The translations under genes and the position numbers were made by a program. This document shows positions 2 through 9,796 of a stretch of 64,000 nucleotides of DNA, one piece after another. This DNA is from Amycolatopsis sp. WQ 127309. GTDB taxonomy: Bacteria > Actinomycetota > Actinomycetes > Mycobacteriales > Pseudonocardiaceae. Positions within the stretch are counted from its first letter, which is position 1. Every line of letters starts with the position of its first letter. The notes under the pieces are model-generated. The model was not told where the DNA came from. It worked only from the letters and a program-made list of their open reading frames with translations, and did no database searches. The stretch covers positions 4,898,001 through 4,962,000 of the forward strand of contig NZ_CP095481.1 of the NCBI RefSeq assembly GCF_023023025.1. The letters run 5' to 3'.

Positions 2-1375
2 GGGCTCGGCGCGCTCGAGGTCGGCGCGATCTGCCTGATCCTGCCGAGCGTGGCGCTGGTGTGGTGGGCGCTGCTCGGCTGGGGCGTGCTCGCCGGCGTG
101 GTGGCCACGCTGCTGGCCGGCCCGGTCTTCGTGCTGACGGTCTGCGTGGTCGTCGCCCTCGGCCGACGTCTTGTGCTGCCGGCGACGCCGATCGGGGTCC
201 ACCCGGTCCGGTCCGGGCTCGGCGTGCGCAAGTGGGTCGCGGACAAGCTCCTCGAGTTCAGCCTGACCTTCACGAACTCGCTGTACGCCACGCTCTACAC
301 CGTCCCGTGGCTGCGGCTGCTGGGCGCCCGGGTCGGCCGCGGCGCCGAGGTGTCGACCGCCGGGCACCTCGACCCGGACCTGCTCACCCTGGGCAGCGAA
401 AGCTTCGTCGCGGACATGGCGACCGTCGGCGCGGCGACCTTCGCCCGCGGCCGCGTCGCGTTCCTCACCACCGACGTCGGCCGGCGCGCGTTCGTCGGCA
501 ACGCGTCGGTCGTCCCGGCCGGGACGGAGCTGGGTGACGGCTCCCTGGTCGGCGTCGGCACGGTGCCGCCGGGGCAGCACGTGCCGGGCGACTCGTCGTG
601 GCTCGGCTCGCCCGCGATGCACCTGCCGCGGCGGCAGGACAGCGGCGACTTCCCGGAGGAGCAGACGTTCCGCCCGCCGCGTCGCGTGGTCCGGCAGCGG
701 CTCGCCATCGAGTTCGCGCGCGCCACGCTGCCCGCGTCCCTGCTGGCGCTGAGCTTCTACCTGTTCCTGCTGACGTTGTCCGGGCTCGCGTTCGGCCGGG
801 ACCTGCCGGTGCCGGCCCTGGTGTCGCCGCTGGTCGCGATGGCGTCGGGGCTCGGCGTGATCGGGTTCTGCGCGGCGACGAAGCGCAACGTCATCGGGGA
901 GTACACCGCGCGCGTCGAGCCGCTGTGGAGCCCGTTCGTGCGGCGCAGCGAGTTCGTCACCGGCCTGTACGAGTCGGCCGCCGTCCCGGCCGGGCTCGGC
1001 ATGCTCGTCGGGACGCCGATGCTGCCGCCGCTGCTGCGCTGGTTCGGCGCCCGGATCGGGCGGCGGACGTGGCTCGGCACGACCTACCTCACCGAGTTCG
1101 ACCTGGTCCACGTCGGCGACGACGCCACGATCGGCACCGAGGTTTCGTTGCAGACTCATCTGTTCGAGGACCGGGTGATGAAGATGTCCGTCGTGACCGT
1201 CGGCGACGGCGCGACCGTGGGCACCCGCGCGATCGTGCTCTACGACGCGGTCGTCGGCGACGGCGTCTCCCTCGGGTCGCTGTCGCTGCTGATGAAGGGC
1301 GAGCACCTCGGCTCGCGCACCTCCTGGCGCGGCATCCCCGCGCAACTCCTTACGCTGAAAGGACTTCCGGCGTGA
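2..1375 (+). CDS. Pls/PosA-type NRPS, C-terminal part (5'-truncated)
   Basis: The frame is open to the left edge, so only the C-terminal ~457 residues are seen; adenylation and carrier domains would lie outside. Visible are hydrophobic membrane segments (LLGWGVLAGVVATLLAGPVF and another near LALSFYLFLLTLSGLAFG) alternating with two left-handed beta-helix (hexapeptide) blocks rich in VGDGATVGT-like turns. This membrane plus tandem soluble-domain layout is known from epsilon-poly-lysine synthetase (Pls) and Pls/PosA relatives, which polymerise a single amino acid. The TGA stop lies inside the GTGA that starts the next gene. The substrate cannot be read from this part. An alternative is a stand-alone membrane acyltransferase with hexapeptide repeats, but the two repeat blocks and membrane segments favour Pls. 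Confidence 0.75.
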   Translation, partial: GLGALEVGAICLILPSVALVWWALLGWGVLAGVVATLLAGPVFVLTVCVVVALGRRLVLPATPIGVHPVRSGLGVRKWVADKLLEFSLTFTNSLYATLYTVPWLRLLGARVGRGAEVSTAGHLDPDLLTLGSESFVADMATVGAATFARGRVAFLTTDVGRRAFVGNASVVPAGTELGDGSLVGVGTVPPGQHVPGDSSWLGSPAMHLPRRQDSGDFPEEQTFRPPRRVVRQRLAIEFARATLPASLLALSFYLFLLTLSGLAFGRDLPVPALVSPLVAMASGLGVIGFCAATKRNVIGEYTARVEPLWSPFVRRSEFVTGLYESAAVPAGLGMLVGTPMLPPLLRWFGARIGRRTWLGTTYLTEFDLVHVGDDATIGTEVSLQTHLFEDRVMKMSVVTVGDGATVGTRAIVLYDAVVGDGVSLGSLSLLMKGEHLGSRTSWRGIPAQLLTLKGLPA

Positions 1376-2175
1376 ACACCGCACTGCTGATGTCGGGCGC
1401 CCACCACTTCCGCGTCGACTACGAGATCAACCCGTACATGGACACGGCGGTCCAGCCGGACGTCGCGGCCGCCGTGGCCGAGCACGACGCGCTCGTGGCC
1501 GCACACCTGGCCGCCGGGCGCAAGGTCGAGTTCCTCGACCCGGCGCCGGAGTGCCCGGACATGGTCTACACGGCCAACGCCGCCGTCGCGCGCGGCGGCC
1601 GGGCCGTGCTGGCGAACCTGCCGCCGGAGCGTCGCGACGAGACGCCGTACCACCGGGAGTGGTTCCGCGCCAAGGGTTTCGAAGTCGTCGAGAGCCCGTA
1701 CGCGTTCAGCGGGCAGGGTGACGCGCTGGCGTACGGCGACCTGCTGCTGGCCGGCTACGGGCAGCGCACCGACCGCCGCGCGCACGACGTCGTCGCCGAC
1801 GCGCTCGGCTACGACATCGTGCCGCTGCGCACGACCGGGCCGCGCTGGTACGACCTGGACCTCGCGGTCGCCGTCGTCACACCCGACGTCCTCGCGTTCT
1901 GCCCGGCCGCGCTCGACGAGCCGAGCCAGGCCCGGCTGCGGGAGCTGGGCGGCACGCTCATCGAGGTCACCGAGGCCGAGGCCGAGCGGTTCGCGCTGAA
2001 CCTCGTCAGCGACGGCAGCACCGTCACGATGACCAGCGGCGTCCCGGAGCTGGCCGCGACCCTGCGCGAGCGCGGGCTGAGCGTCGTCGAACTCGAGACG
2101 ACGCAGCTGCGCAAGGGCGGGGGCGGCGTGCGGTGCACCGCGTTGACGCTCGACAACCCGGAGCGGACGGCGTGA
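1372..2175 (+). CDS. DDAH/arginine-deiminase superfamily protein lacking catalytic His
   Basis: 267 residues, GTG start overlapping the upstream stop by 4 nt. The fold is recognisable from NPYMD near the N-terminus, PDMVYTANAAV, LVSDG and the C-terminal KGGGGVRC with the nucleophile Cys255. The family hydrolyses methylarginine or transfers amidino groups. The usual EGxGD loop reads S113-GQG-D117 here, and the usual YHLDTA signature reads W159-YDLDLA, so the catalytic His position is Asp161. The Cys is kept but the general base is missing, so normal dimethylargininase activity is doubtful. Context (NRPS upstream, amidotransferase-like genes downstream, all coupled) suggests a role in tailoring the NRPS product or its precursor. 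That role is inference. Confidence 0.8.
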   Translation: MNTALLMSGAHHFRVDYEINPYMDTAVQPDVAAAVAEHDALVAAHLAAGRKVEFLDPAPECPDMVYTANAAVARGGRAVLANLPPERRDETPYHREWFRAKGFEVVESPYAFSGQGDALAYGDLLLAGYGQRTDRRAHDVVADALGYDIVPLRTTGPRWYDLDLAVAVVTPDVLAFCPAALDEPSQARLRELGGTLIEVTEAEAERFALNLVSDGSTVTMTSGVPELAATLRERGLSVVELETTQLRKGGGGVRCTALTLDNPERTA

Positions 2176-2837
2176 GGCCGCTCGCCCTCGTCTACCGCGG
2201 TCCCGCTTCGCTGCCGGGCTGCCCGGAAGCCGTCGCCGACCTGCTGAAGTCGAGCAAGCACGGCTTCGACGTCCGGTTCACCGGTCCCGACGAGAAGTTC
2301 AAGCTCGGCGAGGCCGCCCTGGCCGGTGCGGCGCTGTACGCCCAGCCCGGCGGCGGCACGCTCGGGAGCGCGTACCGGAAACTACGCCGTCACCGCGACG
2401 ACGTCCGCGCGTTCGTCGAAGGCGGCGGGCGGTACCTCGGGTTCTGCCTGGGCGGCTACCTCGCCGGCGCGACGCCGGGGTTCGGCCTGCTGCCCGGCGA
2501 CACCGACCGCTACATCGACACCGAGGACGCGACCGTCGACCACGACGAGGACGCCGTCGTCAAGGTCCGCTGGCGCGGCCACCGGCGGAAGCTCTACTTC
2601 CAGGACGGCCCGGTGTTCCTGCTTGAGAAGCCCGACTCCGCCGACGTGCTGGCCACCTACCCGAACGGCACGGTCGCCGCGCTCGTCGCGCCGTTCGGCG
2701 CCGGGCGGGTCGGCGTCGTCGGACCGCACCCGGAGGCCACCCGCGACTGGTACGCCGACGGCGGTCTGCGGCCGCCGCTGCTGCGCTACGGCCACGACCT
2801 CGGGCTCGACCTCGTCGACACGGTGATGGCCCGATGA
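2172..2837 (+). CDS. BPL_N-domain, class I amidotransferase-like protein (cytoplasmic copy)
   Basis: 221 residues from the GTG that overlaps the DDAH-like stop (GTGA). It has the glutamine-amidotransferase fold of the BPL_N family (named after the N-terminus of yeast biotin-protein ligase). The nucleophile elbow GFCLGGYLAG carries Cys92, and GPHPE supplies His186 and Glu188, so the triad looks intact. No signal peptide or membrane segment is visible, so it should be cytoplasmic. It is clearly paralogous to the lipoprotein at 4018-4752 (shared YRG, AQPGGG, GFCLGGYLAGATPGF, LLPGDT, YFQDGP and VGVVGPHPEA). Substrate is unknown; amide or isopeptide chemistry on the NRPS product is a guess. Confidence 0.75.
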   Translation: MRPLALVYRGPASLPGCPEAVADLLKSSKHGFDVRFTGPDEKFKLGEAALAGAALYAQPGGGTLGSAYRKLRRHRDDVRAFVEGGGRYLGFCLGGYLAGATPGFGLLPGDTDRYIDTEDATVDHDEDAVVKVRWRGHRRKLYFQDGPVFLLEKPDSADVLATYPNGTVAALVAPFGAGRVGVVGPHPEATRDWYADGGLRPPLLRYGHDLGLDLVDTVMAR

Positions 2838-4021
2838 CCGCCCCGGCGCCCAAGGTCCGGTTGACGGCGGTCGACGCCACCCGCGGGATCGCGCTGCTCG
2901 GCATGATGGCCGTGCACTCGCTGATCGAGGAAAGCTCACCGGGTCATCCGTCGGTGTCGTTCGCCATCTTCGGCGGCCGCGCGGCGGCGACGTTCGCCGT
3001 GCTGGCCGGGCTCGGGATCGCCTTCATGACCGGGCGCCGTCGCGTGCGGGGGGCGGATTTCGGGCCCACCGCGGCGATGCTGGCCGTGCGCGGGCTGGCG
3101 ATCGGCGCGATCGGCCTCGCGCTCGGGTACACCGACGCCGAGCTCGCCGTCGTCATCCTGCCGTACTACGCGATCCTGTTCCTGCTCGCGATCCCGCTGG
3201 TGCTCCTGCCGAGCTGGGCGGTCGCCGGGGTGGGCGTGGCGGTGGTGGCCGGCGTCCCGCCGCTGACCCACCTGCTGCAGCCGCACCTGGCCGAGCCGAC
3301 CCTGCTGAACAACGGTTTCGCTTACGCCGCGGAGCATCCCGTGCGGCTGCTGACCGAGCTGTCGCTGACGGGGGAGTACCCGGCGCTCTCGTGGACGGCG
3401 TACCTGTGCGCGGGGATCGTGATCGGCCGGCTGACGCTCAGCCGCGTCAAAGTGGCGGTCACACTGCTGGTCACCGGGGTCACGATGGCCGTCGGCGCCG
3501 CCGCGGTGTCGTGGGTGCTGCTGAACCGCTTCGGCGGGCTGGCGGCGATCTGGGCCGCGCAGCCGGGCAGCGTCCTGACCGCGCCGGAGACCACCGAACT
3601 GCTCAACCTGGGCGGCGACGGCACCACCCCGACGTCGACCGCCTGGTGGCTCGCGGTCGACGGGCCGCACACCGGCACCGCGCCCGACCTGATCGGCACG
3701 ACGGGCGCGGCGATGGGCCTGCTCGGGCTGCTGCTCCTGCTCGGCCGCCTGCGGGTGGCGAAGATCGTCTTCGCGCCGCTGGCCGCGGCTGGGAGCATGA
3801 CGCTCACCTTCTACACGGCGCACATCATGTTCCTGAACTCCGACTACGACGTCTACACCTCCGGCGTCGGCTACGCGCTGCAGGTCGCCGGTGTCCTCGT
3901 GGTGGGCCTGGCCTGGCGGGCGACGGCCGGGAAGGGCCCGCTGGAAGCCCTGGTCACGGCGTTGGCCACCCGCGCGAAACGGCGGGTGGCGGCCGCGCCC
4001 CGGTTGCGGGTCGCGACGTGA
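2834..4021 (+). CDS. HGSNAT/YeiB-like multi-pass membrane acyltransferase
   Basis: 395 residues, ATG overlapping the previous stop (ATGA). The N-terminal signature VDATRGIALLGMMAVHS is typical of heparan-alpha-glucosaminide N-acetyltransferase / DUF418-YeiB membrane proteins. About ten hydrophobic helices follow, and FYTAHIMFLNSD in the last third resembles the conserved late helix of these families. Members carry acyl groups across the membrane or act as membrane acyltransferases. It lies between cytoplasmic and exported BPL_N paralogues, so a trans-envelope modification step is an attractive but untested idea. The C-terminus is Arg/Ala-rich and cytoplasmic by charge. Confidence 0.7.
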   Translation: MTAPAPKVRLTAVDATRGIALLGMMAVHSLIEESSPGHPSVSFAIFGGRAAATFAVLAGLGIAFMTGRRRVRGADFGPTAAMLAVRGLAIGAIGLALGYTDAELAVVILPYYAILFLLAIPLVLLPSWAVAGVGVAVVAGVPPLTHLLQPHLAEPTLLNNGFAYAAEHPVRLLTELSLTGEYPALSWTAYLCAGIVIGRLTLSRVKVAVTLLVTGVTMAVGAAAVSWVLLNRFGGLAAIWAAQPGSVLTAPETTELLNLGGDGTTPTSTAWWLAVDGPHTGTAPDLIGTTGAAMGLLGLLLLLGRLRVAKIVFAPLAAAGSMTLTFYTAHIMFLNSDYDVYTSGVGYALQVAGVLVVGLAWRATAGKGPLEALVTALATRAKRRVAAAPRLRVAT

Positions 4022-4752
4022 CGGTCTCCCGCCGGCTGGTCCTGACGGGCGCCGTCGCGGCCGGGCTGCTCGCGGCGTGCGGCGCGCCCACGCCGGACAC
4101 CCGGCCGCTGGCGCTGGTCTACCGCGGGAAGGCGTCGACCGGCGCCTGCTCGGACGCCGTCGCGGACCTGCTGCGCACGCGCATGCGCGTCGAGTTCTGC
4201 GGCCCGGACGAGAAGACCCCGCTGACGGCCGCGGCGCTCGCGACGGCGGCGGTGTACGCCCAGCCGGGCGGCGGTTCCCTCGACGACGGCTGGCGCGCGA
4301 TGCGCCGCTACGCCGACGTGATCACCGGCTACGTCCGCGGCGGCGGGCGTTACCTCGGGTTCTGCCTGGGCGGTTACCTGGCGGGTGCGACGCCGGGGTT
4401 CACCCTGCTGCCCGGCGACACCGAGCAGTACATCGGCACGTCGGGCGCCGAGGTGCGCTCGACCCGGGACACGGTGATCCCGGTGGACTGGCAGGGAAAG
4501 CGCCGTCGGATGTACTTCCAGGACGGCCCGGACTTCGTCTTGCGGTCCGGTGCGCAGGCGACGGTGCTCGCCCGGTACACGAACGACAAGATCGCCGCTT
4601 TGGTTGCGCCGTACGGAAAAGGCCGCGTCGGCGTGGTCGGCCCGCACCCGGAGGCGCCGGAGTCCTGGTACCGAGACCTGCGCCTGACGAACCCTGATGG
4701 CGTGACGCCGGACCTCGGGCTCGAGCTGGTGGACCGGACGCTCACCCCCTAG
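4018..4752 (+). CDS. BPL_N-domain amidotransferase-like lipoprotein (exported copy)
   Basis: 244 residues, GTG start in a GTGA overlap with the acyltransferase stop. The N-terminus RRLVLTGAVAAGLLAAC is a lipoprotein signal peptide with lipobox Cys21. The rest repeats the 2172-2837 protein: GFCLGGYLAG with Cys116 as nucleophile and GPHPE with His210 and Glu212. It should sit on the outer face of the membrane. Two copies of one enzyme fold, one inside and one outside, around a membrane acyltransferase is an uncommon arrangement. Its 3' end overlaps the convergent MerR gene by 11 bp. Confidence 0.78.
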   Translation: MTVSRRLVLTGAVAAGLLAACGAPTPDTRPLALVYRGKASTGACSDAVADLLRTRMRVEFCGPDEKTPLTAAALATAAVYAQPGGGSLDDGWRAMRRYADVITGYVRGGGRYLGFCLGGYLAGATPGFTLLPGDTEQYIGTSGAEVRSTRDTVIPVDWQGKRRRMYFQDGPDFVLRSGAQATVLARYTNDKIAALVAPYGKGRVGVVGPHPEAPESWYRDLRLTNPDGVTPDLGLELVDRTLTP

Positions 4753-5173
4753 GCGCCCACAACCGGTCCGCGTCCCCGGCTTCCAGGCGGCCCCGGTAGA
4801 CGTCGATCTTGTGGTCGATCAGCTGCAGGTTCTCCTGCAGCTCGGCCAGCTTCGCGAGCACCTCGGCGCGGTGGGCTTCCATCAGCGCCAGCCGGTCCTG
4901 CTCGTTGCCGCGTCCGGCCGCCACCAGTTCGGCGTACTCGCGGATCGTCTTGATGGGCATGCCGGTGGCGCGCAGGCGGGTGCAGACCGTGATCCAGTCC
5001 AGGTCCAGCTTGCGGTAGCGGCGCCGGCCGCCGGCGGTGCGGTCGACGCGGGTGACCACGAGGCCGGCGCGTTCGTAGTAGCGCAGTGTGTGCGCGCTGA
5101 CCCCGGTGCGGCGGGCGGCGTCGGCGATCGACAGCCCCGCCGCCGGGATGGGCGGTGATTTGACTTCGAGCAC
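4742..5173 (-). CDS. MerR-family transcriptional regulator
   Basis: 143 residues, GTG start. The N-terminal winged helix LSIADAARRTGVSAHTLRYYERAGLV is classic MerR, followed by the RYR wing, IKTIREYAEL, and a C-terminal coiled coil (MEAHRAEVLAKLAELQENLQLIDHKIDVY). There are no clustered cysteines, so a metal sensor is unlikely; it resembles MerR regulators of drug or organic-ligand efflux. It is divergent from the MFS gene 25 bp away, and the spacer holds a MerR-type promoter, so it probably controls that pump and itself. Confidence 0.9.
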   Translation of the reverse strand: MLEVKSPPIPAAGLSIADAARRTGVSAHTLRYYERAGLVVTRVDRTAGGRRRYRKLDLDWITVCTRLRATGMPIKTIREYAELVAAGRGNEQDRLALMEAHRAEVLAKLAELQENLQLIDHKIDVYRGRLEAGDADRLWAPRG

Positions 5174-5190
5174 ACTCTAAATCCTAGCGT
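5160..5190 (+). promoter_or_regulatory. MerR-type promoter with 19-bp spacer for the MFS gene
   Basis: TTGACT (5160-5165) and TAGCGT (5185-5190) are separated by exactly 19 bp, the overlong spacing that MerR activators correct by twisting DNA. A short GAG-CACA-CTC dyad lies in the spacer. The -10 ends 8 bp before the MFS ATG, so the mRNA would be leaderless. The MerR gene's own start lies inside this segment. Confidence 0.5.
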
Positions 5191-5198
5191 CGGAACCC

Positions 5199-6551
5199 AT
5201 GAACGCTCCGACCGTCAACCGCCGGCTCGTGCTGGCGATCTGCTGCGTCAGCATCGTCGTCGTGGTGATGGACATCTCCGTCGTCAACGTCGCCCTCCCG
5301 TCGATCCGCCGCGACCTGCACGCCTCCCCGGCCGGGCAGCAGTGGACGATCGACGCCTACACGCTCGTGCTGGCCGGGTTCCTCGTGCTCGCCGGGTCCA
5401 CCGCCGACCGCGTCGGCCGCAAGCGGGTCTTCCTGACCGGGCTCGCCGTCTTCGGTGCCGGGTCACTGCTGTGCGGGCTCGCGCCGGGCATCGGGTGGCT
5501 GATCGCCGCACGCGCGTTGCAGGCGGCCGGCGGCACGATGCTCAACCCCGTCGCGATGGCCATCGTCGCCACCGCCTACCCCGCCCCGGCCGAGCGGGCC
5601 CGCGCCATCGGCGTCTTCGGCGCCATGTCCGGGCTGGCGCTGGTGCTCGGGCCGATCCTCGGCGGCCTCCTCGTCGACGGCTTCGGCTGGCGCGCGGTCT
5701 TCTGGGTCAACGTCCCGATCGTCGCCGCCGCGATCGTGGCCACCGCGCGGTTCGTGCCCGAGTCCCGCGCCGCCCGCACCCGCCGGTTCGACCCGGTCGG
5801 GCAAGTCCTGGTGGTGCTCGTGCTCGGCAGCGTCGTCGCCGCGATCATCGGGTCCCGGGGGCTCGGCTGGTCGTCACCGGTGGTCCTCGGCCTGCTCGCC
5901 GTGGCCGCGCTCGGCGTCACCGGGATCCTCGTTTACGAGCCGCGACGCGCGGATCCGCTGCTCGAACTGCGGCTGTTCCGCAGCGTCTCGTTCAGCGCGG
6001 CGATCGTGATGGCGGTCTTCGCGCTGTGCGGCTTCGGCGCGTTCCTGTTCGTGACGACGCAGTACCTGCAGGACGTCCGCGGGCTGTCGGCGCTGGACGC
6101 CGGGTTGTGCCTGCTCCCGGTCGGGGCGCTGGTCCTGGTGCTGTCGCCGGTCACCGGCCGGCTGGTCGGCACGCGCGGGCCGCGGCTGCCGCTGGTCGTG
6201 GCCGGGAGCGCGCTCGCGCTGGGCGGCGCCGCGTCGGTGTGGTTCGGGCCGGCGACCCCGCTGGTCGCCGTGCTCGCGGTCTCGCTGCTCTTCGGCGTCT
6301 TCCTCGGCACCGTCAACCCGCCGATCACGACCACGGCGATGGCCGGGATGCCGGGGTCGATGGCCGGGGTGGCCGCCTCGCTGGCCTCCACCGGGCGGCA
6401 GACCGGCACCACGCTGGGCGTCGCGATCGCCGGCGCGGTGCCCGGCGTGGGCTGGGTGGTGGCCGGTCTCGGGGCCGGTCTGGTCGGGTTGGCCCTGGTC
6501 AGCACGGCCGCGAACCGTGTACCGATGAATGTGACTCAGGTCACACGATAG
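5199..6551 (+). CDS. MFS drug transporter, DHA2 (EmrB/QacA) type
   Basis: 450 residues, ATG 8 bp after a predicted -10. It begins with the DHA2 pattern MDISVVNVALPSIRRDL, then QWTIDAYTLVLAGFLVLAG, the loop 2-3 motif DRVGRKRVF and motif C (GLALVLGPILGG). Hydrophobic segments agree with 12-14 helices. Likely a proton-driven exporter of a toxic or secreted compound. It is divergent from MerR, which is the likely activator. The substrate is not predictable, though it neighbours the NRPS cassette. Confidence 0.9.
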   Translation: MNAPTVNRRLVLAICCVSIVVVVMDISVVNVALPSIRRDLHASPAGQQWTIDAYTLVLAGFLVLAGSTADRVGRKRVFLTGLAVFGAGSLLCGLAPGIGWLIAARALQAAGGTMLNPVAMAIVATAYPAPAERARAIGVFGAMSGLALVLGPILGGLLVDGFGWRAVFWVNVPIVAAAIVATARFVPESRAARTRRFDPVGQVLVVLVLGSVVAAIIGSRGLGWSSPVVLGLLAVAALGVTGILVYEPRRADPLLELRLFRSVSFSAAIVMAVFALCGFGAFLFVTTQYLQDVRGLSALDAGLCLLPVGALVLVLSPVTGRLVGTRGPRLPLVVAGSALALGGAASVWFGPATPLVAVLAVSLLFGVFLGTVNPPITTTAMAGMPGSMAGVAASLASTGRQTGTTLGVAIAGAVPGVGWVVAGLGAGLVGLALVSTAANRVPMNVTQVTR

Positions 6552-6574
6552 TCTGCGGAAACCCTCCCGGGAAA

Positions 6575-6599
6575 TGTCGAACGCCGCGAGCGGCCGATC
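6575..6599 (+). promoter_or_regulatory. Candidate ECF42-type promoter
   Basis: TGTCGA at 6575-6580 followed after 14 bp by CGATC at 6595-6599. ECF42 sigma factors are reported to use TGTCGA in the -35 and CGA/TC in the -10 and to drive DGPF genes. It lies ~75 bp before the DGPF gene at 6674, and an ECF42 gene is at 8492. Tentative. Confidence 0.35.
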
Positions 6600-6673
6600 G
6601 ACGCGGGGGTGAAGGCCGCTCATCGCGTCCGGGAGCGAACCGGACCACGGCCGAGAACACCAGGGAGTCAGCC

Positions 6674-7039
6674 ATGCGTTTCCTCATGATGCACCGCCTC
6701 GACGAGAGCGTCCCCGAGGCCTGGAACCCCAGCCCGGAGTTCATCGAGAAGATGGGCGCGTTCATCCAGGAGTCGGCGGAGAACGGCCGGCTGATCACGG
6801 CGGAGGGCGTCCTCCCGTCGGAGAAGGGCGCGCTCGTCCGCAAGCCGCGCGGCGCGGCGATCCGCGTCACGGACGGCCCGTTCGCCGAGGCCAAGGAGGT
6901 CATCGGCGGGTTCGCGCTGATCAACGCCGAGGACCTGGCGGACGCCGTCGTGTTCGCGAAGTCCTACGTCGAGCTGTTCGAGGCCGAGATCGAGGTCGAG
7001 GTGCGCCAGGTCGCCGAGTTCGACGACATCCCCGGCTGA
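6674..7039 (+). CDS. YciI-like protein with DGPF motif
   Basis: 121 residues, ATG preceded by AGGGAG 6 bp upstream. It starts RFLMMHRLDES and carries VTDGPFAEAKEVIGGF, the DGPF motif of the YCII family. These small dimeric ferredoxin-like proteins often accompany ECF42 sigma factors as their targets; enzymatic function is unknown. A second DGPF gene lies at 8136. It is followed by a perfect hairpin at 7048-7078. Confidence 0.88.
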   Translation: MRFLMMHRLDESVPEAWNPSPEFIEKMGAFIQESAENGRLITAEGVLPSEKGALVRKPRGAAIRVTDGPFAEAKEVIGGFALINAEDLADAVVFAKSYVELFEAEIEVEVRQVAEFDDIPG

Positions 7040-7047
7040 CACCGTGC

Positions 7048-7078
7048 CCGGCGGCGGGCGATTTCCGCCCGCCGCCGG
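7048..7078 (+). terminator. Hairpin terminator after the DGPF gene
   Basis: Perfect 13-bp arms (7048-7060 and 7066-7078) with loop ATTTC, 8 bp after the stop. There is no T-run, as is usual in actinobacteria. Confidence 0.6.
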
Positions 7079-7147
7079 ACGGCCGTTGTGCTTCGTCCGG
7101 CGGCACGCCAAGGTGGGTTCGCGGTCGGCCGGGACGGGGGAGCGGAC

Positions 7148-8035
7148 GTGGGCGAGGGCGAGCGATCCAGGACACGGCCGGACCTGTCCGCCGTCGTGAG
7201 TGTCGTGCTTTCCGTGCCCGTCGTCGCCAGCAGCGGGCTCGTGCTGGTCCTGCTCGGCAAGCTCGCCTGGCCCGCGTACTTCTGGGTCGCGCCCGCCGGG
7301 TGGGTGGTCGCCGGCGGGATCACCTTCGTGCCCGCGTTCGAGCACTTCCTGCTGCCGCTGATGTTCGGGATGCGCTCGCCGACCGCGCGTGAGCTGGCCC
7401 GGCTGACGCCCTGCTGGCAGGCGGTGTGCGCGGCCGCGGGCGTCGATGGCGGCCGGTACCGGTTGTGGGTCGAACGCTCCCGCGAACTGAACGCCTTCGC
7501 CGCCGGCGGCCGGACCGTCGCGGTGACGCGGACCGCGCTCGACCTGCCGCGGGCCGGCCTCGAAGCGATCCTGGCGCACGAGCTCGGCCACCACCTCGCC
7601 GGGCACACGCGGATCTCCCTGCTGATCTGGTGGCTGGAGCTCCCGGCCCGGATCCTGACCCGGCTGGTCCGGCTGCTCGCCCTGGCCGTGCCGTACGTCG
7701 GACGCGCGTTCGCGGCCTTCGGGCGGGCGGTCGCCGTGCTCGTCACCGTGCTGCTGAGCTTGGGGATCCTCACGGCGCTCGCGTTCCTCGACCCGTGGCT
7801 GCTGCTGGCGCCCCTGCTCGGCCCGGTGCTCGCCTGGTCGAAACGGCTCGGCGAGTACCGCGCTGACCGGATGGCGGCGCGGCTGGGTTACGGCCCGGAG
7901 CTGATCGCCCTGCTCAAGCAGTGGATCGCGCTGCACCGCGGCGACGAGCGGCGGCTGTGGGCCCGGCTGCTGGCCGGGCACCCGGCCCACATCGACCGGA
8001 TCAAGCGGCTGAAGGAGCACCGCGGCGGATTTTGA
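7148..8035 (+). CDS. M48-family membrane zinc metalloprotease
   Basis: 295 residues from the GTG at 7148, chosen because GGGGGAG sits 5-6 bp upstream; an earlier GTG at 7088 has no site. Two N-terminal hydrophobic segments (VVSVVLSVPVVASSGLVLVL and VAPAGWVVAGGITFVPAF) precede the M48 core, with zinc site H144-ELGH-H149 and a downstream GEYRADRMAARLGYG supplying the third ligand (Glu) region. A further hydrophobic pair lies between them. The family degrades damaged membrane proteins or trims prenylated substrates. It is a lone gene between two DGPF genes. Confidence 0.85.
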   Translation: MGEGERSRTRPDLSAVVSVVLSVPVVASSGLVLVLLGKLAWPAYFWVAPAGWVVAGGITFVPAFEHFLLPLMFGMRSPTARELARLTPCWQAVCAAAGVDGGRYRLWVERSRELNAFAAGGRTVAVTRTALDLPRAGLEAILAHELGHHLAGHTRISLLIWWLELPARILTRLVRLLALAVPYVGRAFAAFGRAVAVLVTVLLSLGILTALAFLDPWLLLAPLLGPVLAWSKRLGEYRADRMAARLGYGPELIALLKQWIALHRGDERRLWARLLAGHPAHIDRIKRLKEHRGGF

Positions 8036-8135
8036 GCACGAGAGGCAGAATCTCCGGCGAGGGTGTCCAAGGCGCCGCGGGCCGTTCGTAGTGGTGGCGT
8101 ACGGCAACCACGCCACGACACGACGGAGGAACACC

Positions 8136-8486
8136 GTGAAGTACCTGATGCTGATCAACGCTTCGCTCGACGCCGACGGCGCGCCCACCGGCTGCAGCAC
8201 CCCCGAAGACTGGATGCTGTTCGACAAGTCCATGAAGGACGCCGGTGTCCACGTCCACGGGAACTCGCTCGCCGACTTCACCACCGCCGCCGCGGTCCGC
8301 GTCGACGAGCGCGGCGAGCGCGTCGTCACCGACGGGCCGTTCGCCGAGTCGCGGGAGGTGCTCGGCGGCTACTTCGTCGTCGACGTGCCGGACTTCGACG
8401 TCGCGCTCGAGTGGGCGGCGCGCTGCCCCGGCGCCCGCGACGGCGGGTCGATCGTCGTCCGGCCGCTCGCGTCCTACGGGGACTGA
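8136..8486 (+). CDS. YciI-like protein with DGPF motif, partner of the ECF42 sigma factor
   Basis: 116 residues, GTG with GGAGGA 5 bp upstream. It begins KYLMLINASLDADG and has VTDGPFAESREVLGGYFVVDV, the DGPF signature, ending in VRPLASYGD. The stop is 5 bp before the ECF42 start, so the two form an operon, the standard ECF42 arrangement. A weaker TGTCCA/CGTTC pair (8064-8087) may be its promoter. Paralogous to 6674-7039. Confidence 0.88.
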   Translation: MKYLMLINASLDADGAPTGCSTPEDWMLFDKSMKDAGVHVHGNSLADFTTAAAVRVDERGERVVTDGPFAESREVLGGYFVVDVPDFDVALEWAARCPGARDGGSIVVRPLASYGD

Positions 8487-8491
8487 CGAAG

Positions 8492-9796
8492 GTGCCGGAG
8501 CAGGCGGACGCGTCGAGCGATGCTTTCGGGGGTTCCGGGTGGCGGAGCCCCCGGCCCGGGGCGAAGTCCCGGCTGACGCTGGAGGCGGTGTTCCGGGAGG
8601 AGCGCGGGCTGCTGCTCGCCGCGCTCGTCCGCCGGTTCGGTGACCTCGACCTGGCCGAAGAGGTGACGTCGGAGGCGATCGAGGCGGCGCTGGTGCGCTG
8701 GCCCGTCGACGGCGTGCCGCCGAAGCCGGGCGCGTGGCTGATGACGACGGCGCGGCGCAAGGCCGTCGACCGGCTGCGCCGCGACCAGGCCTACGCGGCC
8801 CGGCTCGCGGTGCTGCAGGTCGAGGCCGACCGCGCGGCGCCCGCCCCGGCGCCCGGCGGCGAGCTGCCGGACGAGCGGCTCCAGCTGTTCTTCACCTGCG
8901 CCCACCCGGCGTTGCCGGCGGAGGACCGCACGGCGCTGACGCTGCGCTGCCTCGCCGGGCTGACGACGCCGGAGGTGGCGCGTGCGTTCCTGGTGCCCAG
9001 CGCGACGATGGGCAAGCGGATCGTGCGGGCGAAGAACCGGATCCGCACGGCCCGGATCCCGTTCCGGGTGCCGGACGCCGCCGAGCTGCCCGGCCGGCTG
9101 CCGGGTGTGCTCCAGGTCGTCTACTCGATCTTCACCGAGGGGTACGCGGCCAGTTCGGGCCCGGACCTGCAGCGGCTCGACCTGGCCGAGGAGGCGATCC
9201 GGCTGGGCCGGATCCTGCGCCGGCTGCTGCCGGCGGAGCGCGAGGTCGCGGGCCTGCTCGCGCTGATGCTGCTGGTCCACGCACGACGCGACGCCCGGAC
9301 CGGCGGCGACGGCGACGTAGTCCTGCTCGACGACCAGGACCGCGGCCGCTGGGACCACGCACTGATCTCGGAAGGCACCTCGCTGGTGGAGGTGGCGTTG
9401 ACCGGCGGCCCGCCCGGCCTCTACGGCGTCCAGGCGGCGATCGCGGCACTGCACGACGAGGCGCCGGACGTGGCGGGCACGGACTGGCCGCAGATCGTCG
9501 CGCTCTACGACGTCCTGCGCGGCCTGGCGCCGTCCCCGGTGGTCGAGCTGAACCGCGCGGTGGCGGTGGCGATGCGCGACGGCCCGGCCGCGGGCCTGGC
9601 CCTCCTCGACGCCCTCACCGAGGAACCCCGCCTGCGGTTCTACGCCCCGTTCCCGGCGGCGCGGGCGGAGCTGCTCAGCCGCCTGGGCCGCCTGCCGGAG
9701 GCGGCATCGGCCTACCGCGACGCCCTGGCCCTGGCGGGCACCGAACCAGAACGCACCCACCTGCGCCGCCGCCTCGCCGAGTGCCAAAAGCCGTGA
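8492..9796 (+). CDS. ECF42-family RNA polymerase sigma factor with C-terminal TPR-like extension
   Basis: 434 residues. Region 2 (LEAVFREERGLLLAALVRRF with the DLDLAEEVTSEA helix and WLMTTARRKAVDRLRR) and region 4 (LRCLAGLTTPEVARAFLVPS) occupy the first ~190 residues. The long C-terminal helical extension (DUF6596-like, with FTEGYAASSG, LNRAVAVAMRDGPAAGLALLDAL) is the ECF42 hallmark and replaces an anti-sigma factor as the control device. GTG 8492 was chosen as the first start after the DGPF stop. Its last 41 bp are duplicated 127 bp downstream. Confidence 0.92.
   Translation: MPEQADASSDAFGGSGWRSPRPGAKSRLTLEAVFREERGLLLAALVRRFGDLDLAEEVTSEAIEAALVRWPVDGVPPKPGAWLMTTARRKAVDRLRRDQAYAARLAVLQVEADRAAPAPAPGGELPDERLQLFFTCAHPALPAEDRTALTLRCLAGLTTPEVARAFLVPSATMGKRIVRAKNRIRTARIPFRVPDAAELPGRLPGVLQVVYSIFTEGYAASSGPDLQRLDLAEEAIRLGRILRRLLPAEREVAGLLALMLLVHARRDARTGGDGDVVLLDDQDRGRWDHALISEGTSLVEVALTGGPPGLYGVQAAIAALHDEAPDVAGTDWPQIVALYDVLRGLAPSPVVELNRAVAVAMRDGPAAGLALLDALTEEPRLRFYAPFPAARAELLSRLGRLPEAASAYRDALALAGTEPERTHLRRRLAECQKP

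Follow-up and report, generated by a model that had tools for sequence, protein, structure and literature searches.

The first 4,752 nucleotides of a 64,000-nucleotide stretch of the Amycolatopsis sp. WQ 127309 genome carry a cassette of five genes, in which a synthetase of the Pls/PosA family is followed by a pentein-family protein, two BPL_N proteins and a membrane acyltransferase. The whole stretch, here called the window, is G000:C1:4898001-4962000 of an 11.1-Mb, single-contig genome; coordinates follow the window, with position 1 at G000:C1:4898001, unless a retrieved locus (L number) is named. Our best explanation of the whole, offered tentatively and with slightly less than even confidence, is that its products build and handle a polymer in which a small diamino acid, with L-2,3-diaminopropionate (Dap) the likeliest candidate, is joined by isopeptide bonds, and that the BPL_N proteins cut the chain. 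The polymer synthetase is of a known kind; the partner set is the new part, no earlier account of BPL_N beside such synthetases having been found in a literature search made by amidotransferase-type terms rather than by the BPL_N name, and with most subscription journals outside it. The strongest new points are the mutual exclusion of the second BPL_N copy and an M1-family peptidase, and the rewritten active site of the pentein. The analysis establishes which genes are present, how they overlap, how far genes and key residues are conserved, the predicted BPL_N1 fold and this exclusion; the monomer, chain cutting, the acyl acceptor and the function of each gene, gene 2 among them, are predictions. 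The cassette is laid out as follows:

2..1375, plus strand: C-terminal 457 codons of the synthetase, gene 1 (TIGR02353); the gene begins 2660 bases before the window
1372..2175, plus strand: gene 2, 267 aa, DDAH/ArgZ-like protein of the pentein family with a rewritten active site (PF19420, 48.3 bits against a cut-off of 23)
2172..2837, plus strand: gene 3, BPL_N1, 221 aa, class I amidotransferase fold in an AlphaFold2 model (PF09825, 48.8 bits against a cut-off of 24.2)
2834..4021, plus strand: gene 4, 395 aa, multispanning membrane acyltransferase of the HGSNAT type (PF07786, 37.3 bits against a cut-off of 22)
4018..4752, plus strand: gene 5, BPL_N2, 244 aa, putatively exported copy (PF09825, 53.4 bits against a cut-off of 24.2)
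1372-1375, 2172-2175 and 4018-4021, plus strand: GTGA junction overlaps
2834-2837, plus strand: ATGA junction overlap

The domain order of genes 1 to 5 is TIGR02353 (C-terminal part), DDAH_eukar, BPL_N, HGSNAT_cat and BPL_N, with a 4-nt overlap at each junction (at 1372, 2172, 2834 and 4018). An earlier, sequence-only reading had reported these GTGA/ATGA overlaps and taken the five genes to serve one pathway; all four overlaps are present, and the one-pathway claim is supported. Among 78 related synthetase genes, the stop codon lies within ATGA or GTGA in 52, a count of the motif that does not consider the start of the next gene.

The whole synthetase is a single open reading frame of 1344 aa (L009 11341-15375, equal to G000:C1:4895341-4899375), which matches TIGR02353 with 554.2 bits against a cut-off of 423.1. 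Its adenylation (A) domain matches TIGR01733 with 418.9 bits (cut-off 317.4), and the alignment of the carrier region spans residues 538-618, where a GGHSL motif was seen by eye. By sequence the enzyme is a member of the Pls/PosA family, as had been claimed, and the making of a homopolymer is predicted from this membership. The A domain had been placed outside the window; the upstream reading frame carries it, so the case of an upstream gene devoid of one did not arise. By analogy with Pls and the poly-diaminopropionate (PDAP) synthetase, the A domain would activate the monomer, the carrier region would be loaded, and the membrane-embedded C-terminal part would polymerise it.

The nine pocket positions of the A domain, set by motif, read DFEYLGTVT. 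In the available text of PMC10522769, the poly-ornithine synthetase pocket is DMEHNGTVSK, position 2 is Ala for lysine and Phe for the PDAP synthetase, and the pocket Asp and Glu are tied to diamino acids. The window synthetase has Phe at position 2, as do Dab-type (diaminobutyrate) synthetases, which adjoin a class III aminotransferase (L194) or an aspartokinase (L197, L207) and read DFECLS(A/V)VT, whereas the Lys-type synthetases read have DAESIGTVV. PosA, the delta-poly-ornithine synthetase, shares the family architecture and the pocket Asp and Glu with the window enzyme, but has Met at position 2 and, according to the same text (PMC10522769), no cotranscribed neighbours. In a FastTree tree, 79 focal-type sequences (those of the window synthetase's type; 85 rows before repeats were removed) form a pure clade (0.998), with seven Dab-type sequences just outside it and 12 Lys-type sequences in a clade of their own; identity of the window synthetase to the Lys type is 33-36%. 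The strings DFEYVGTVT, DFEYLGTVT, DFEYIGTVT and DFECLSVVTK returned no mention in the literature text searched.

A probable name for the focal type comes from Streptomyces noursei. In strain A-2-1 the family is represented by two matches at E 1e-40, one of the Lys type (L196) and one of the focal type with a BPL_N gene (L147), and the window synthetase shares a clade with this only non-Lys member. The NCBI taxonomy treats S. albulus as S. noursei and places strain PD-1 within it, and one such synthetase of PD-1 has been disrupted and expressed as the PDAP synthetase (PDAPs, EXU85975; available text of PMC4668381), an enzyme with the same architecture and, according to PMC10522769, Phe at pocket position 2. 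The focal type is therefore probably the PDAP type, by elimination in another strain of the same species, which holds one focal-type synthetase, and the product is probably of a known type, that of beta-poly-diaminopropionate. The sequence-only reading, partly supported as a whole, had suggested a modified or processed polycation; here the chain is probably one already known in type, and the novelty lies in the partner set. The available text of PMC4668381 describes pdaps without partners; at L147 the focal-type gene is followed by a BPL_N gene, while gene 2, gene 4 and a second BPL_N were not found there.

That a Pls-like enzyme with changed chemistry yields some other amide, such as an oligomer of few units or a group added to the cell surface, seems quite improbable to us. 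None of the loci studied has a known product, and TIGR02353 also occurs in reading frames of 841-1072 aa, seemingly too short for an A domain and a C-terminal part; the A domain of the window enzyme, however, is complete and contains the Asp and Glu tied to diamino acids (PMC10522769, available text).

How far the partners travel with such synthetases was assessed by searching for BPL_N1 in 200 genomes of the Pseudonocardiaceae at E 1e-10, which gave 36 matches in 28 genomes. The same genomes hold 26 close synthetases, defined by a C-terminal part of at least 52% identity, and nine more at 37-47%; BPL_N adjoins 23 of the 26. A scan of GTDB species genomes with a BPL_N alignment confirmed 300 relatives, of which the best 76 loci were used, from Streptomyces, Micromonospora, Microbispora, Dactylosporangium, Nocardia, Rhodococcus, Geodermatophilus and other actinobacteria. 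BPL_N is paired with a Pls/PosA-family synthetase in 71 of these best 76 loci; of the five others, four are close to the end of a contig. In all, 105 loci were assessed. Eleven without a paired synthetase and BPL_N by the score limits were dropped (L064-L069, L117, L133, L145, L165, L168; L133, L145, L165 and L168 lie near contig ends), then seven repeats and L144, where BPL_N is on the other strand, leaving 86 deduplicated loci, all chosen through BPL_N.

In 56 of the 86 loci, gene 4 lies no more than 9 kb away on the same strand; 23 loci have gene 2, 27 have a second BPL_N and 32 have an M1 peptidase, and the exact five-gene order is found in 15. The window is one of several variants of a modular cassette. 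The sequence-only reading had held that its proposal would fail if the four partners were rare beside Pls/PosA genes in related genomes; BPL_N beside the close synthetases and gene 4 in 56 loci speak for the association, while gene 2 and the second BPL_N are much less frequent. Nor are the partners general beside Pls/PosA genes at large, since TIGR02353-family proteins are present in 138 of the 200 genomes and BPL_N in 28. Two observations from these loci are recorded here: L064-L068 have BPL_N genes with no synthetase inside the retrieved stretch, in genomes without a close synthetase, and a weak Peptidase_S51 (cyanophycinase-type) match, below cut-off, lies upstream of a Micromonospora cassette (L101 1528-2742).

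The BPL_N1 model has a class I amidotransferase fold, with a triad at these positions:

2445..2447, plus strand: Cys92, triad nucleophile; Cys-His-Glu triad invariant in 31/31 sequences
2727-2729 and 2733-2735, plus strand: His186 and Glu188 of the triad, invariant in 31/31 sequences

The folds nearest to it belong to Pdx2 and HisH, both glutaminase subunits, and structural alignments give 11-22% identity to enzymes of this fold. BPL_N shares fold and triad with Pdx2/YaaE, HisH and gamma-glutamyl peptidase 1, but differs from them in this low identity, in the lack of an ammonia-using partner, and in having one copy exported. No export signal was seen in the BPL_N1 sequence. BPL_N2 carries the same triad and begins MTVSRRLVLTGAVAAGLLAAC, a twin-arginine-like signal followed by a lipobox-like LAAC (Cys21 at 4078-4080), and a twin-arginine-like motif is present in 26 of 27 deduplicated second copies. 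These features agree with the suggestion that amidotransferase-fold partners act both inside and outside the cell, BPL_N1 lacking a signal and BPL_N2 having one of an export type.

The distribution of the second copy gives a clue to its role. In the 86 loci, 27 have the second BPL_N only, 32 have an M1 peptidase only, and none has both. In the Pls/PldII system of epsilon-poly-lysine producers (Streptomyces), a TIGR02353 synthetase is likewise coupled to an exported polymer-degrading enzyme, although the pocket is DAESIGTVV and an M1 peptidase stands in place of BPL_N. Gene 5 is BPL_N by profile and does not belong to the M1 (zinc) peptidase family; like PldII it is encoded with the synthetase and, by its signal, apparently exported, while polymer degradation is a prediction. 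Our proposal is that BPL_N2 serves to protect the producer from its own product, as an alternative hydrolase of the polymer. Both BPL_N proteins would be Cys-His-Glu hydrolases that cut the chain, BPL_N1 in the cytosol for clearing or trimming, and BPL_N2 outside, where it would hold the place taken in sister cassettes by an M1 enzyme of the poly-lysine-degrading type. A Lys-type Pls is also present in the window's genome (L011, G000:C1:10180000-10190500, 5523-9461 minus; pocket DAESIGTVV), followed by an M1 peptidase gene (4021-5481 minus), an arrangement much like the pls-pldII of poly-lysine producers.

BPL_N1 and BPL_N2 could instead modify the chain, by capping, cyclising, attaching or releasing it through amide or peptide transfer, to give the modified polycation first envisaged; we consider this doubtful. 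The amidotransferase fold with an intact triad and the coupling of BPL_N1 to the synthetase would suit it, and we know of no thioesterase domain in the Pls/PosA family. Chain release is left open in the available text of PMC4668381, which also reports that pdaps alone yielded PDAP, at low yield, in S. lividans fed Dap, a result that counts against this reading, as does BPL_N2, which would lie outside the cytosol and alternates with an M1 peptidase.

The fold raises a further role for BPL_N1, that of a glutaminase giving ammonia for synthesis of the diamino-acid monomer, and this we think very unlikely. Although its closest folds are glutaminase subunits, its nucleophile motif reads GFCLGGY as against the glutamine-type CLGxQ, the exported copy carries the same triad, and domain searches of the cassette proteins found no ammonia-using partner enzyme. 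An ammonia-using step has been proposed for Dap (PMC4668381, available text), which would give such a glutaminase a use.

Several points weigh against the reading of the cassette as a Dap-polymer system with BPL_N cutters. The predicted fold of BPL_N1 does not show peptide cutting, because the nearest folds are glutaminase subunits. The Fisher test of the BPL_N2/M1 exclusion ignores ancestry; neither exported gene is present in 27 of the 86 loci, and in L151, one of the 32 M1 loci, the peptidase lies beside a Lys-type synthetase. Three of the 26 close synthetases have no adjacent BPL_N: L303 (G178 contig 11) carries an M1 peptidase together with genes 2 and 4, and L304 and L305 have none of the partner genes. 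Conversely, five of the 36 BPL_N matches have no synthetase nearby (L035-L039), and in L069 (G155; 2515-7750, minus) a BPL_N of 47% identity lies just upstream of a Dab-like synthetase, so that the link between BPL_N and the focal type is not a strict one. As to the monomer, pocket position 4 is Cys instead of Tyr in seven of the 85 focal-type rows (repeats still in), and the published PDAP synthetase gene is 4338 bp (PMC4668381, available text) against a frame of 4263 bp in S. noursei A-2-1, a comparison of lengths and not of sequences. A search of the window's genome for a Dap source gave neither an SbnA nor an SbnB above cut-off, nor an SbnA/SbnB pair lying close together.

In S. noursei too, none is over cut-off, yet SbnA-like and SbnB-like genes lie within 2.5 kb of each other with one gene between. 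SbnB proved uninformative as a marker of Dap supply, being present in 131 of the 200 genomes (115 over cut-off). In S. pinistramenti (L264 12110-19901, minus), the genes for a focal-type synthetase and BPL_N are followed in series by those for a Lys-type synthetase and an M1 peptidase, and SbnB-like and SbnA-like genes lie within a few kb. Short-frame TIGR02353 proteins of about 870-1040 aa, which look too short for an A domain, were also seen about 5 kb from an SbnB gene and are perhaps another Dap polymer system; the positions, genome by genome, are:

G012:C1:3301638 and 3308262
G158:C1:4530276 and 4525532
G163:C1:4084938 and 4080069

Gene 4 is over cut-off for PF07786 (HGSNAT_cat), from which transfer of an acyl group to an amine is predicted, and its Asp14, Arg17 and His28 are kept in 63/63 rows (repeats included). 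The enzyme would act at the outer face of the membrane, its probable target being the free amines of the chain or some other surface component. Close to the Dab-type synthetase of S. celluloflavus (L194) there is a relative of gene 4 (28% identity, E 2e-26), and an outward-acting acyltransferase may thus be a shared accessory of such polymers. The Dab-type systems, PldA/Dat and PddA/PddB of gamma-poly-Dab, to which loci were assigned by inference from gene content and published figure legends, are the nearest clade in the tree and share Phe at position 2; they differ in the pocket string, DFECLS(A/V)VT, and in having monomer genes (aminotransferase, aspartokinase) beside the synthetase.

Gene 2 had been read as a DDAH-like protein with a guanidine-group enzyme fold, hinting at a modified polycation; its residues do not support a guanidine-modifying step by an ordinary enzyme of this kind. 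The nearest solved proteins are the arginine dihydrolases Alr4995 (AgrE) and Sll1336 (ArgZ), which match nearly the whole protein. The alignment comprised 27 clade rows, including both members of three repeat pairs (L046/L115, L052/L164, L058/L174), 24 distant housekeeping homologues of 35-41% identity, and Alr4995; two distant rows are gapped at the Glu118 and His168 positions, leaving 22. The positions concerned are:

1708..1710, plus strand: Ser113, at the Alr4995 Glu118 position; Ser in 27/27 clade rows, Glu in 22/22 aligned housekeeping rows
1852..1854, plus strand: Asp161, at the Alr4995 His168 position; Asp in 27/27 clade rows, His in 22/22 aligned housekeeping rows
2134..2136, plus strand: Cys255, at the Alr4995 Cys264 position; Cys in 27/27 clade rows

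The Asn71, Asp122 and Asp170 positions of Alr4995 are also kept in 27/27 rows, and His38 of gene 2 is specific to the clade (His in 27/27, Trp in the 22 aligned housekeeping rows). Two further members, L300 and L303, likewise read FSGQGDAL and YDLD. Glu118 and His168 of Alr4995 are positions we take to be catalytic. Gene 2 also scores below every curated NCBI model that it matched (bits/cut-off 224.9/300, 151.7/450, 156.2/1025, 56.4/340 and 38.9/450). Judged on these residues, it is not an ordinary guanidine hydrolase, and because the replacement is uniform in a conserved protein, a changed function is suggested rather than decay. The pentein keeps its Cys without the usual Glu and His, and its role has probably shifted.

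Gene 2 is always accompanied by gene 4 (23/23, against gene 4 in 33 of 63 loci without gene 2; one-sided Fisher 6.7e-6, ancestry ignored). At E 1e-30 it has a match in 113 of 120 genomes searched, with 35-41% identity outside the close clade except for a 55% fragment in G004, whereas the clade itself (at least 60%) was seen there in six cassette-holding genomes and as one unlinked copy in the window's genome. This second copy (L010 15744-16523, minus), whose protein is 70% identical, lies 1.3 Mb away, with no other cassette gene within the 18.5-kb stretch. Among 345 genomes across the class, the only other match at E 1e-75 is in G242 (L302 7203-8006, minus); it has the same Ser and Asp, adjoins a gene resembling an oligopeptide-binding protein, and has no other cassette gene in 15.5 kb. 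Gene 2 is therefore not strictly bound to the cassette. It was rejected as the family's ordinary arginine enzyme, the near-ubiquitous distant type being separate from the cassette clade, and as an ornithine supplier for poly-ornithine, on the pocket Phe and the Ser and Asp replacements.

More broadly, we give little credence to gene 2 as a working arginine dihydrolase whose ornithine would be used by a poly-ornithine synthetase or in making Dap. Dap can be made from serine and ornithine via NjxA and NjxB (PMC4668381, available text), the related Rv2323c is required for arginine use (PMC4569260, available text), and the nearest solved proteins are dihydrolases whose Asn and Cys positions are kept. 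Against this stand the two replacements throughout the clade, scores below the curated cut-offs, Phe where the poly-ornithine synthetase has Met, and the presence of gene 2 in no more than 23 of the 86 loci.

Beyond the cassette (window 4742-6551), a minus-strand gene for a MerR-type regulator meets and overlaps the cassette's end in a tail-to-tail arrangement. On its other side it diverges from an MFS-type efflux gene, with which it would form an ordinary efflux pair, judging from sequence.

Isopeptide polycations of bacteria have found use, or are under study, as preservatives, antifungals and cell-penetrating carriers. To our knowledge, little is known of chain release, the setting of length, or producer survival outside poly-lysine. 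It is possible, though on balance unlikely, that actinobacterial amidotransferase-fold Cys-His-Glu enzymes, one kept within the cell and the other exported, are an unrecognised family of hydrolases for polycations, standing in for the M1 enzymes that protect poly-lysine producers, and that a pentein with a rewritten Cys-Asp-Ser centre performs a new step in the synthesis or handling of a chain of the poly-diaminopropionate type. If the BPL_N proteins do cut such chains, they would represent a new class of self-protection enzyme and provide a handle on chain length, and BPL_N would mark many actinobacterial loci as candidate producers, given the 300 relatives in one scan. The rewritten pentein, in turn, would bring to a superfamily that has been studied in depth either a new arrangement of the active site or a role in binding.

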